64,000 nucleotides of DNA, taken from positions 1 through 64,000 of the forward strand of contig JAIRNR010000019.1 in assembly GCA_031257915.1 (NCBI GenBank), written 5' to 3'. The notes beneath the pieces are model-generated. The model had not been told where the DNA came from. It saw nothing but the letters and a program-made list of their open reading frames with translations, and made no database searches. Positions within the stretch are counted from its first letter, which is position 1, and the number at the start of each line of letters is the position of its first letter. The position numbers were made by a program, and so were the translations under genes. This DNA is from Bacteroidales bacterium (GTDB lineage Bacteria; Bacteroidota; Bacteroidia; Bacteroidales; P3). Positions 16,101-21,055 of the stretch are shown here, piece by piece.

Positions 16101-17177
16101 TTATTCCGTTTGTTGTTTGATTATATAAACCGTTCCCTTGCCTTGTCCTATTGTTGAGACAAATTGCTCATCGCGTAGATATTGCAAATCTTTTCTCAGT
16201 GTGTGGGGCGAAATATCAGGGAAAGCAACCACCAAATCGGCAACTTTAAAGATTTTTTGTTTGATAATAAATTTTTCGAGCATTTTTTGTCTTTCGTTCA
16301 AATAACCGCCTTTTTGTTTGAAAATATTGTACTTTTTGTCCAACTTTTCGGTCAGTGTTTTCAAACTTTCCAAAAAGAAAAGCAACCATTTGTCAATAAT
16401 ATCTTCCTGCATTATTCGTTTGCGCTGGGCTGTCATTAGAGCATTATAATACGCTTTTTTGTTTTTTTCAATGTGGTTTTCAAACGAAATATACTGCACA
16501 AATTTATATCCTTGTTGCAAAAGAAAAAGCGTTGTAAGTAAGCGGCTTAACCTTCCATTTCCGTCTTGAAAAGGGTGAATACTCAAAAATTCATATACAA
16601 AAATTGCCAGCACAATGAGCGGATGTATCGTCTTTTCTTCCCATTGCAAATTTGTCCATTTAATTAACTCAAACATTTCGTTCTCAACCAGAACGGGCTC
16701 GGTAGTGTTGAAAATAATTTTATGTTCGCCTGTGGGATAGGTTGCTGCAACTTTGTTCGGCATATTTTTGTACTTGCCGCGGTGACGCTCGTCTTTACTG
16801 CTATGTTTGAGTAAAAGTTGGTGCAGTTGCTTGATGTAACTTTCCGACAGTCTTATTTCCGAAAAATTATCAAAAATTAGTTCCAAAACTTCGTAATAAC
16901 CAACAACTTCTTGCTCGTCACGAGTTTTAAACTTCGTGATTTTTACATCTTTGAGCAACTGCTTTACTTCTTCGTCCGTCATTGAACTACCTTCAATGCG
17001 GGTAGAAGAACCTGTATTTTCAATTGTAGCAATTTTTCGCAACTCTTTCAAGTAACGATTTTCGCGTTTTTCAATAACGTTCCATTTGCCGCGGTACTCG
17101 TCGATTCCCGCAACAAGTTTCATTACACGTTGATTTGTGAGAAAATTCAAATTTAATTTTTGAAGATATTTATCCAT
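16101..17177 (-). CDS. Fic family protein with N-terminal inhibitory helix and C-terminal winged helix
   Basis: 358 residues. The core motif HPFQDGNGRLSR (201-212) is a complete HxFx(D/E)GNGRxxR active site, so AMP or other NMP transfer to target hydroxyls is expected. The inhibitory signature SxxxEG is present as S58-E62-G63 near the N-terminus, making this a class II, self-restrained Fic enzyme. The N-terminal part matches the Fic_N-type fold. Residues about 290-358 resemble a winged helix (VADLVVAF..ISPHTLRKDLQYLRDEQFV), so the protein may bind DNA and regulate itself; the promoter region carries repeats that fit this. It is divergent from the ATPase at 17486. Targets are not predictable. 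Confidence 0.92.
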   Translation of the reverse strand: MDKYLQKLNLNFLTNQRVMKLVAGIDEYRGKWNVIEKRENRYLKELRKIATIENTGSSTRIEGSSMTDEEVKQLLKDVKITKFKTRDEQEVVGYYEVLELIFDNFSEIRLSESYIKQLHQLLLKHSSKDERHRGKYKNMPNKVAATYPTGEHKIIFNTTEPVLVENEMFELIKWTNLQWEEKTIHPLIVLAIFVYEFLSIHPFQDGNGRLSRLLTTLFLLQQGYKFVQYISFENHIEKNKKAYYNALMTAQRKRIMQEDIIDKWLLFFLESLKTLTEKLDKKYNIFKQKGGYLNERQKMLEKFIIKQKIFKVADLVVAFPDISPHTLRKDLQYLRDEQFVSTIGQGKGTVYIIKQQTE

Positions 17178-17263
17178 ATTGTATCTGTATTTTGCCTGTA
17201 AATTCCCATATAAATTTAAAATGCAAAGATATGGAATATTTATATTATATCCATATTGTATCT
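17171..17263 (-). promoter_or_regulatory. fic promoter with 16-bp direct repeats and an inverted repeat
   Basis: On the minus strand TATCTTTG (complement of 17224-17231) fits the -7 consensus. The 16-mer AGATACAATATGGATA (minus strand) occurs twice, at 17248-17263 upstream of the -7 box and at 17171-17186 spanning the ATG start. A perfect 7-bp inverted repeat, ATATGGA/TCCATAT with a 14-bp spacer, lies at 17229-17256 and touches the -7 box. The layout suggests repressor binding, possibly by the gene product's own winged helix. Confidence 0.55.
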
Positions 17264-17447: not shown

Positions 17448-17455
17448 TATATTTG
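17448..17455 (+). promoter_or_regulatory. -7 promoter element TATATTTG for the ATPase gene
   Basis: It matches TAnnTTTG, 30 nt upstream of the ATG at 17486. No TTG at the expected -33 distance. Confidence 0.45.
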
Positions 17456-17485
17456 CAACAGTATTTACACCCACATCTACTTTTT

Positions 17486-18781
17486 ATGTACAGAGAAAAA
17501 ATAGAAGAACTGAAACAGTGGAAAGAAAGCGCACAGCGTAAACCATTGATAATAAGAGGTGCGCGTCAAGTTGGTAAAACTTGGTTACTTAAAGAATTTG
17601 GCAAAACCTGTTATCAGAATTTGGTTTATGTAAATTTTGAACGAATGAATGAGTTGCAGAACTTGTTTTTGCCCGATTTGAATCCGAAACGAATTTTGGA
17701 AACCCTGGAACTTGCTATGAGCGTTTCCATTCAATCCGAAAACACTTTGATTGTTTTTGACGAAATTCAGGCAGCGGAACGAGGATTGACTTCATTGAAA
17801 TATTTTTGCGAAGAAGTGCCTGAATATCACATTATTGCAGCAGACTCGCTACTCGGAGTTGCCATTAACAAAAACGTTTCTTTTCCTGTTGGAAAAGTTA
17901 ATTTTCTTAATTTGCATCCGCTTTCGTTCAACGAATTTCTGCTCGCTATGGGCAATGAGAAGCTGGCAAATGCAATGAAAAAACATCGTTTGGATTTGCT
18001 GCCGGGTGTTACGGGAAAGTTAAAAGAACTTTTGCGTATTTATTTTTATGTCGGCGGAATGCCCGAGGTGGTCTTTGAGTTTTCGCAAACACAAAATTGG
18101 GAAAATGTACGTGATATTCAACGCGAAATAATTTTAACTTATGAAAATGATTTTGCCAAGCACGCACCGCTTGAAACTGTTCCACGTATTCGTTTGGTTT
18201 GGCAAAATATTTCGGCGCAGTTGGCGAAAGAAAATAAAAAGTTTATTTACAGCGTTTTACGTGAAGGTGCAAGGGCAAAGGATTTTGAGGTAGCGATACA
18301 GTGGCTGCTTGATTGCGGACTTTTAGTAAAAGTTCCGCGAATTTCAAAACCTTCTTTACCGCTTACGGCGTACGCCGATTTTACAAATTTCAAACTCTAT
18401 ATGCACGACATAGGCATTTTAGGTGCGATGTCAGGATTGAATGCACAAACGATTGTTAAAGGCGATGATATTTTTACGGAATTTAAGGGCGCACTTACGG
18501 AACAGTTCGTATTACAGCAACTTCATACCGTGAAAGACATGTTTATTTCCTATTGGGCAAATGACCGCAGTACTGCCGAAGTTGATTTTGTAATACAGGC
18601 AAATGGCGAAATTACGCCGATAGAAGTAAAAGCAGCGGAAAATCTGCAATCCAAAAGTTTTAAATTCTTTTATGAAAAATATAAACCGAAAAATGCTGTA
18701 AGAACTTCATTGTCAGATTTCAGGCAGGAAAGCTGGATGACAAATGTGCCGCTGTATATTATTGGAAATTATTTTTGGTAA
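17486..18781 (+). CDS. AAA family ATPase with DUF4143 domain
   Basis: 431 residues from the ATG at 17486; a longer in-frame TTG start at 17453 would overlap the -7 element and was not used. Walker A is GARQVGKT (25-32) and Walker B is LIVFDEIQ (D92-E93). The middle carries HPLSFNEFL, and the C-terminal half is the DUF4143 module (YFYVGGMPEVV, then TEQFVLQQL, and a nuclease-like VDFVIQANGEITPIEVKA). That last segment resembles the restriction-endonuclease-like fold (D..E.K). Such proteins are abundant, patchily distributed accessory ATPases whose role is unsettled. It is transcribed away from the Fic gene; the two need not be functionally linked. Confidence 0.88.
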   Translation: MYREKIEELKQWKESAQRKPLIIRGARQVGKTWLLKEFGKTCYQNLVYVNFERMNELQNLFLPDLNPKRILETLELAMSVSIQSENTLIVFDEIQAAERGLTSLKYFCEEVPEYHIIAADSLLGVAINKNVSFPVGKVNFLNLHPLSFNEFLLAMGNEKLANAMKKHRLDLLPGVTGKLKELLRIYFYVGGMPEVVFEFSQTQNWENVRDIQREIILTYENDFAKHAPLETVPRIRLVWQNISAQLAKENKKFIYSVLREGARAKDFEVAIQWLLDCGLLVKVPRISKPSLPLTAYADFTNFKLYMHDIGILGAMSGLNAQTIVKGDDIFTEFKGALTEQFVLQQLHTVKDMFISYWANDRSTAEVDFVIQANGEITPIEVKAAENLQSKSFKFFYEKYKPKNAVRTSLSDFRQESWMTNVPLYIIGNYFW

Positions 18782-19400: not shown

Positions 19401-20465
19401 ATGGAAATGAAAAAGGTTTTTTCAGAACGTTTTAAGTCAGCCCGTTTAATTAAAGGTTTTTCATTACAAGATTTGGCTAACGCCTTGGGAAATCAATTAT
19501 CTCGTCAAGCGTTACATCGTTACGAGAAGGGAGCGGTTATTCCTGATACCGAAAAAATCAACTTATTAAGTAAAGCATTAGATGTTAGCCCTGATTATTT
19601 TTTCAGAACGACCAAAGTGGAATTGGGTGAAATTGAATATCGTAAATTGAGCAAAATGCCACAAAAAGAAGCTTCTATAATCAAAGAAAAAACCAAAGGA
19701 TACCTCTCACGATATTTGGAATTGGAAGAAATTTTGGGGTTAAGAAATGAATTTGATAATCCTTTAAAAAACTTTGGTGTAATTACTTCTTACGACCAGG
19801 TAAATAAAGCATCTATTAAATTAAGAAATGCTTGGAACTTGGGCAACAATGCTATATTCAATGTTGTGGAGCTTTTAGAAGATAAAAACATTAAAGTTGT
19901 CAAACTAAATGTCGATGAAGCTTTTGACGGTTTGCAAACCTTTGTAAATGGAAACATTCCTGTTGTGGCTTACAATGTTAATAAAATCAATAAACCCGAC
20001 AGAATACGTTTTACCCTTTTACACGAGTTAGCTCACTTGCTTTTAAATTTTGGTGATGCAACCGAACGAGCAAAGGAAATTTTATGTCATCAATTTGCAG
20101 GTGCAATGTCATTGCCCGAAGAAACTCTCAGAGCAGAATTGGGTGATCATAGAAACAGACTTTCTTTTTTAGAGTTAGGCAACATCAAAAAGCAATACGG
20201 CATCTCAATGCAAGCCATTGTAATGCGAGCAAAAGATTGTGGAATAATCAACGAAAACTATACGAAACAATTCTTTTTTGTAATCAAGCAGATGAACTGG
20301 ACAGTAGATGAACCGTATGATTACTTTGGTATTGAACAGTCCAACCGATTTGAACAACTTTTATTCAGAGCATTGGTTGAAGACCAAATTTCAATGTCAA
20401 AAGCAGCCGCATTAGATAATAAATCTTTAGCGGATTTTAAAAAAGAACATCAAATGATACTCTAA
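19401..20465 (+). CDS. Xre-type HTH regulator fused to ImmA/IrrE metallopeptidase
   Basis: 354 residues. Residues about 8-65 are an Xre helix-turn-helix (FKSARLIKGFSLQDLANALG, then SRQALHRYEKG). Residues about 150-250 are an ImmA/IrrE-type zinc peptidase with HELAH at 208-212 and a downstream glutamate in KEILCHQFAGA (E226) as likely third ligand. In known members the peptidase cleaves a repressor or antitoxin after a signal; the HTH binds DNA. The gene is followed 38 bp later by a PIN-domain gene on the same strand, the layout of a toxin-antitoxin module. Both genes look more AT-rich than the flanking T9SS and metabolic genes, consistent with transfer. A second ATG (19407) is possible. Confidence 0.9.
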   Translation: MEMKKVFSERFKSARLIKGFSLQDLANALGNQLSRQALHRYEKGAVIPDTEKINLLSKALDVSPDYFFRTTKVELGEIEYRKLSKMPQKEASIIKEKTKGYLSRYLELEEILGLRNEFDNPLKNFGVITSYDQVNKASIKLRNAWNLGNNAIFNVVELLEDKNIKVVKLNVDEAFDGLQTFVNGNIPVVAYNVNKINKPDRIRFTLLHELAHLLLNFGDATERAKEILCHQFAGAMSLPEETLRAELGDHRNRLSFLELGNIKKQYGISMQAIVMRAKDCGIINENYTKQFFFVIKQMNWTVDEPYDYFGIEQSNRFEQLLFRALVEDQISMSKAAALDNKSLADFKKEHQMIL

Positions 20466-20503
20466 TAATCAAATCTTAATTTATACTTAATTATATCCGA
20501 GAG

Positions 20504-21055
20504 ATGAAAATGAAAGTTGCTGTCACAGATGCCTGTATTTTTATTGACTTACACGATTTAGAATTAGTAACTTCGTTTTTTGCTCTTGATATAGAGATAC
20601 ATACAACTTCCGCAATTCTATATGAATTGTACTCCGAACAACAACAGATTCTTAAAGCCTATCAATCTGTTAACAAGCTTATTGTGCATAATTTACAGGA
20701 ACAGGATTTCATAGAAATTTATTCGGAAGAATACCCAAAGTCATTATCCGAAACCGACAAGTCTGTTTTATACATCGCCAATAAAATAAATGCTTGTGTA
20801 TTGAGTAGCGATAAAACGCTTCGGAATTGTGCTAAAAACAAGGACATTGAATGTCACGGAATGATTTGGATTTTTGACAAATTGGTTGAAACATCTAATT
20901 TAACTACGAAAGAAGCTGCAAACAAATTAAAGCAACTTGTAGATACAAATTTTGTTTTTAAAAACAATCAAAAATTGGTTGAAGAAATTGAAAAACGGTT
21001 GAAACGTTGGAAGCAGTTATCAATAACTAAGGTGTCAGATAACGTTTTTTTATAA
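20504..21055 (+). CDS. PIN-domain protein, probable toxin partner of the Xre-ImmA gene
   Basis: 183 residues. The first 110 show the PIN nuclease pattern: D9 in VTDACIFIDL, E41 in ILYELYSEQ, D85 in SETDKSVLYIA, and D103 in SSDKTLRNCA. These four acidic residues would hold the metal for RNA cleavage. The C-terminal ~70 residues are helical and lysine-rich. PIN proteins of this size are commonly VapC-like ribonuclease toxins or DUF3368-type relatives. Here the neighbour is not a classic small VapB antitoxin but an Xre-ImmA protein, so the regulatory logic may differ. Spacing suggests one transcript. Confidence 0.78.
   Translation: MKMKVAVTDACIFIDLHDLELVTSFFALDIEIHTTSAILYELYSEQQQILKAYQSVNKLIVHNLQEQDFIEIYSEEYPKSLSETDKSVLYIANKINACVLSSDKTLRNCAKNKDIECHGMIWIFDKLVETSNLTTKEAANKLKQLVDTNFVFKNNQKLVEEIEKRLKRWKQLSITKVSDNVFL

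Follow-up and report, generated by a model that had tools for sequence, protein, structure and literature searches.

Results

The window analysed here, a 64,000-nucleotide stretch of Bacteroidales DNA, carries on its minus strand (16101-17177) a fic gene encoding a solitary Fic enzyme of 358 amino acids with a C-terminal winged helix. Pfam recognizes the Fic domain with 66.9 bits (cut-off 24), and the AlphaFold2 model of the protein has a mean pLDDT of 88.2. The C-terminal winged helix of SoFic-like Fic proteins is present, as judged from an HTH_DeoR match of 20.2 bits at residues 296-337, just below the Pfam cut-off of 21, and from the AlphaFold2 model, in which it consists of helices 295-307, 312-318 and 324-336 and strands 340-343 and 350-353. 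An N-terminal DUF4172 domain was not found, Fic and HTH_DeoR being the only Pfam matches at E ≤ 0.001. Class II Fic AMP transferases are characterized by the catalytic motif HxFx(D/E)GNGRxxR and by the N-terminal inhibitory motif (S/T)xxxE(G/N). The protein contains the former as HPFQDGNGRLSR at residues 201-212 and the latter as S58-TRI-E62-G63; among 18 Fic proteins, H201, P202, N207 and G63 are invariant, and F203, D205, G206, R209, S58 and E62 are nearly so. Both motifs place the protein in class II, and AMP transferase activity is predicted for it. The PADLOC model for SoFic covers residues 47-354 of the protein (E 2.3e-46), and the score against the NCBIfam SoFic equivalog NF046030 is 65.5, below the curated cut-off of 550.

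Upstream of fic lies a divergent gene (17453-18781) for an AAA_14/DUF4143 ATPase (Pfam), and a related frame also precedes fic at L043 and L073 (3 of 82 loci). The region 19401-21055 holds two genes which, read by eye, encode a helix-turn-helix protein with a metallopeptidase-like domain and, after it, a small PIN-like protein; the pair is possibly toxin-antitoxin-like. When the flanks of the 82 fic loci were compared (median flank 1482 bp, frames of at least 60 codons, E ≤ 1e-6), no gene family was common to more than three of them. The same comparison gave no indication of a toxin-antitoxin operon, as no flanking family is linked to fic at more than three of the 82 loci, although antitoxins shorter than 60 codons would escape it.

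The original prediction for this promoter described two 16-bp direct repeats bracketing the -7 box, one of them covering the start codon, and a perfect inverted repeat touching the -7 element. The direct repeats are real: TATCCATATTGTATCT occurs as an exact match at 17171-17186, where it spans the start codon (CAT, 17175-17177), and again at 17248-17263. These are its only exact copies in the 2.49-Mb genome, the next best match having two mismatches. The two copies flank TATCTTTG (minus strand, 17231-17224), which we call the -7 box on the basis of TAnnTTTG, taken here to be the Bacteroidota -7 consensus. ATATGGA (17229-17235) and TCCATAT (17250-17256) form perfect 7-bp inverted arms, the first of which overlaps the -7 box. 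While these elements are exact, the design is an 11-bp phased array rather than a 16-bp pair with a palindrome, and the 16-mers are slices of this larger ordered array of 11-bp units (RGATAnAATAY), in which two units precede the -7 box and a further two or three span the start codon.

On the minus strand, the first upstream unit, U1 (AGATACAATAT, 17253-17263; PWM 15.0 bits at -86), is followed 11 bp later by U2 (GGATATAATAT, 17242-17252; 14.5 bits at -75), and 32 nt separate the start of U1 from the -7 box further downstream. Of the downstream units, D1 (AGGCAAAATAC, 17187-17197) is weak in the window (5.4 bits at -20) but strong in orthologues, most of which read AGATAAAATAY; D2 repeats AGATACAATAT (17176-17186; 15.0 bits at -9) and ends in the start codon. 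A partial third unit, GGATAAATATC (17165-17175, minus strand), lies within the coding sequence in the 11-bp register, with three mismatches to the tandem pattern. The ATATGGA arm belongs to a degenerate inverted unit on the plus strand (17228-17241) that overlaps the -7 box and pairs with TCCATAT; in orthologues, this element is a fuller inverted unit, TTTTGTATC, and inverted PWM matches of 7.3 bits lie at -46 to -49 in L040, L041, L043, L045, L046 and L048. Taken alone, the 11-bp phasing of the window promoter is moderately significant (p = 0.017 against dinucleotide shuffles), and the strong evidence for the array is comparative.

A scan of one genome collection gave 11 loci that encode close relatives of the fic protein (76-88% identity), labelled Bacteroidales, Bacteroidia, Prevotellaceae, Tannerella or Symbiothrix. 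The array is present in all 11, and the flanking DNA is unrelated. Ten of them were aligned with the window, L049, which has a decayed start, being omitted although the array is present there as well. The 16-mer over the start codon is exact in six of the ten aligned orthologues and has 1, 1, 2 and 3 mismatches in the other four; it is thus found before orthologous genes, where its absence had been named as an outcome that would count against autoregulation. In 15-base bins of this alignment of 11 sequences, pairwise identity is 85-92% over the array, 23% in the spacer bin and 12-29% further upstream, and fourfold-degenerate sites of seven full-length fic genes have an average identity of 51%. 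Because the array is more similar than fourfold sites and the flanks are dissimilar, it is evidently under selection and travels with fic. Genes for Fic decay while the array promoter persists, as seen at L168 (G385 contig 98), L049 (JAITHZ010000147.1) and the relic L178 (G028 contig 11), where fic is lost or truncated.

Relatives of fic were sampled from the window's family (149 genomes), order (393), class (395) and phylum (395) by keeping no more than 30 top matches per search and adding 13 further stretches; since the loci are top matches, distant relatives are under-sampled. The 139 loci with a tblastn match included 128 with a usable start and 126 with enough upstream DNA, which gave 102 non-redundant promoters after those more than 80% alike were dropped. 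In 82 of these the protein identity is at least 35% (32 at 49% or above, 50 at 35-49%), and in 20 it is below 35%. Summed over -120 to +15, autocorrelation peaks at lag 11 in the 32 closer promoters (z 16.1) and at lag 10 in the 50 others (z 15.2), and both peaks are missing from control windows 300, 500 and 800 bp upstream. Windows within fic, which have strong lags of their own, were rejected as controls in favour of these upstream windows; as homologous sequences, they are not a valid null. Promoter by promoter (dinucleotide shuffles, lags 9-12), p ≤ 0.05 is reached in 59 of 82 cases and p ≤ 0.01 in 38, compared with 20 and 7 of 367 upstream control windows. Among the 59 significant promoters, the period is 11 in 24 of 25 of the close group and 10 in 33 of 34 of the remoter group. 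A phased array is not significant in 23 of the 82 promoters at or above 35% identity, and among the 20 relatives below 35%, 17 have no significant phasing and three do. At L013, L014, L150, L151 and L197, remoter fic genes are preceded by other short repeats (TGATGCAG, TACTGCATATT, TTCTGCATATT) in which phasing of 10-11 bp was not found; these are possibly separate operator types.

The unit matrix gave 109 matches in 4,860 positions before fic, 46 of them starting a tandem, as against 70 matches and a single tandem in 247,730 strand-positions from other parts of these loci, a contrast that is partly circular because the matrix was trained on these fic promoters. Two good blocks are present in 24 loci; their downstream pair stands at -20/-9 everywhere except in L090, where it is at -32 (23/24), and the -7 box follows the start of the upstream pair by 32-34 nt in 17. 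The blocks are 52-56 apart in 20 loci and 63, 63, 66 and 73 apart in the other four. Helical phasing between the blocks is not claimed, because the Rayleigh p of about 1e-6 owes most to a single compact group of related promoters, and L042 and L050 seem to be one and the same locus.

Outside the Bacteroidota, fic relatives with 27-50% identity occur on 70 plasmid records of other phyla. From these and three matching phage records, 14 plasmid loci and one phage locus were examined, L208 and L209 being left out, and ten of the 15 have a phased promoter (p ≤ 0.05). Examples are Chroococcidiopsis (L199), Paraburkholderia (L194), Methylocystis (L200) and Megaera (L201); the Wolbachia, Lactobacillus, Thioflavicoccus, Agrobacterium and phage loci did not reach p ≤ 0.05. 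The value for L198 is unsafe, because its start was guessed and gives a 31-residue frame.

The repeat sequence co-varies with the winged helix of Fic, not with its catalytic core. Among 93 Fic proteins, the unit is GATAnAATAY (type A) in 19, CGTATCA (type B) in 23, CGGATA in nine, GGGTG(T/A) in 15 and CGAACC in three, and it is unlabelled in 24. The recognition helix paired with type A is T(L/I)(K/R)KD; type B is paired with T(V/I)KR (22/23), CGGATA with T(V/I)KK (8/8 without L115), GGGTG(T/A) with NTLKxHF (15/15) and CGAACC with TVKK (3/3). The motif label 'C' of L115 was discarded as an artefact of overlapping signatures, as both its array and its helix are of type A, and L076 and L132 are exceptions in having K where most type B proteins have R. 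On plasmids, L194, L203 and L204 combine an NTLKxHF helix with GGGTG units, which matches the prediction from the Bacteroidota rule. Across 75 loci, pairwise distances of the promoters in 6-mer profile correlate at 0.71 with those of the winged helices and at 0.63 with those of the cores. Partial Mantel tests on these loci gave 0.41 for the helix given the core, with 0 of 1000 permutations as high, and 0.03 for the core given the helix; unit types form strong clusters on the tree, and a test of this type corrects for shared ancestry incompletely. In control DNA 309-420 bp upstream, the partial Mantel value for the helix is 0.008 (73 loci).

Arrays are nearly absent from other promoters in the pattern-searched genomes. 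In 20 genomes, the type A pattern has 19 matches, of which 14 are before fic, two at one truncated fic (G385) and three elsewhere; in 23 genomes, the type B pattern has 28 matches, 27 before fic and one at a fic-promoter relic. Two fic genes with two unit types occur together in G385 (L050 type A, L143 type B) and in G236 (L051 type A, L144 type B), the latter genome being listed as 98% complete with 1% contamination. From the coexistence of two unit types in one genome, the lack of a recurring neighbour and the near-confinement of the patterns to fic, it follows that the binder travels with fic and differs between co-resident fic genes; no candidate binder other than the Fic winged helix is in view. 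The idea of a regulon was rejected, as the window's genome has a good array match at the fic promoter only. A one-mismatch match in contig 68 (L080) was taken as chance because it lies inside an open frame. Beyond the window, a CRISPR region adjoins this match, with genes that by eye are presumably cas4, cas1 and a Cas12a-like gene.

Discussion

On sequence comparison, the array is very probably a Fic operator, with autorepression as its most likely use. That it serves Fic's own winged helix, and that Fic thereby shuts its own gene by negative feedback, is a reading which we hold with good confidence. Each 10-11 bp unit would serve as a single binding point of the C-terminal winged helix, and the helical-turn spacing would align multiple Fic molecules along the same side of the double helix. 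Occupied upstream units, which immediately precede the -7 box, would keep the sigma factor from the -33 region, and occupied downstream units over the gene start would block initiation or elongation. As Fic accumulates, the array would fill and transcription would fall, a feedback that may keep a potentially toxic AMP transferase scarce. Autorepression through the winged helix had been put forward in the original prediction. Its autoregulatory part is strongly supported by the covariation and the CccR precedent, whereas the repressive sign, like the binding of Fic to the array, its cooperativity and the transcription start, is what we infer.

It is improbable that Fic occupies the array and yet activates its own promoter, or switches sign with its catalytic or oligomeric state. 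The co-evolution of array and winged helix says nothing on the sign of the effect, and the upstream pair keeps a fixed distance from the -7 box (17/24 loci), as activator sites do. However, the downstream pair is fixed over the start codon, a position typical of repression, and CccR represses, according to the part of its description used here (PMC9755527). Slightly less probable still is the binding of another protein, be it a transcription factor of the host or a protein of a phage that the array would serve to sense. Binding by Fic is itself predicted, and relatives with a role in phage defence exist, as the PADLOC SoFic match indicates; yet the unit sequence tracks the Fic winged helix, individual genomes can hold two unit types, fic has no recurring neighbour and other promoters almost lack arrays. 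We give very little credence to a role of the repeats in the transcript, whether as a translational element or another RNA element of the mRNA leader. The downstream units do lie in the leader and start codon with fixed spacing to the ATG, but half of the array is outside the transcript because it is upstream of the -7 box, the type B core is oriented opposite to the gene, and the window has no Rfam match. The least credible explanation is that the repeats lack function and arose by chance, or by a minor duplication, in AT-rich sequence; this would suit the p value of the window promoter by itself but is already contradicted by conservation above fourfold sites, by the phased promoters and by the winged-helix covariation.

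Solitary Fic-winged-helix enzymes are widespread, with phage-defence proteins among them, and the specific binding sequence of such proteins is named as an open matter in the portion of the CbFic2 paper used here (PMC10628234). Apart from CccR, we found no specific DNA target for these enzymes in open papers; nor did we find there the phased tandem operator design or its co-evolution with subfamilies, in a search that covered subscription journals and preprints to a small extent. The arrays provide explicit candidate operators for about a hundred Fic enzymes and a natural code between recognition helix and repeat unit, and they make coupling between promoter occupancy and AMPylation state testable. 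Such coupling, which the original prediction had also raised, is a reasonable extension because CbFic2 reportedly dimerizes on DNA and then removes AMP. More speculatively, and on balance doubtfully, the array could be a scaffold as well as an operator, on which aligned Fic molecules would be forced into a dimeric or higher form that is deAMPylating or inactive, while free monomers AMPylate. In that case a single DNA element would gauge the amount of Fic, turn off the fic gene and decide whether AMP is added or removed. As array and winged helix change together, each fic subfamily would form its own insulated circuit, and several such circuits could coexist in one cell.

Several known systems resemble the arrangement described here. 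Plasmid iterons are direct repeats spaced by about one helical turn, or a multiple of it, that are bound by autoregulating winged-helix proteins; in contrast to these, no replication initiator gene recurs at the fic loci, and the linked protein is an AMP transferase. SoFic/EcSofic is likewise a solitary class II, single-protein Fic with a wHTH, but the fic protein scores far below the SoFic equivalog cut-off (65.5 vs 550). The CbFic2 paper states that SoFic had not been demonstrated to bind DNA, and it ascribes a DUF4172 N-terminal domain to SoFic, CccR and CbFic2 (PMC10628234). CbFic2, compared here by description and not by sequence, is a Fic protein with a wHTH that binds DNA, and DNA reportedly induces its dimerization and deAMPylation; the trials described there used random DNA only, and no operator is known for it (PMC10628234).

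The autoregulation of a Fic enzyme through its own HTH is of a known kind. CccR of Yersinia pseudotuberculosis, a distant relative that also combines a Fic enzyme with a C-terminal HTH, was shown experimentally to be an autorepressor that represses its own promoter 3.3-fold and binds it near -35 and -10, as stated in the part of the report used here (PMC9755527). PDB 7xux, which matches the fic protein by sequence (6.8e-8) and fold (6.9e-13), is putatively CccR, judging from its matching length and title. The same part of the report describes CccR as a secreted effector with independent regulatory and toxic activities, which argues against general coupling (PMC9755527). Its operator, AGATAATCAT-N26-ATGATAATCT, is one inverted repeat bound as a dimer (PMC9755527, same part). 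Two 10-bp inverted arms 26 bp apart are not what the fic promoters show; in contrast to the one widely spaced inverted repeat of CccR, the fic promoter of the window has tandem units of 10-11 bp arranged in two blocks.
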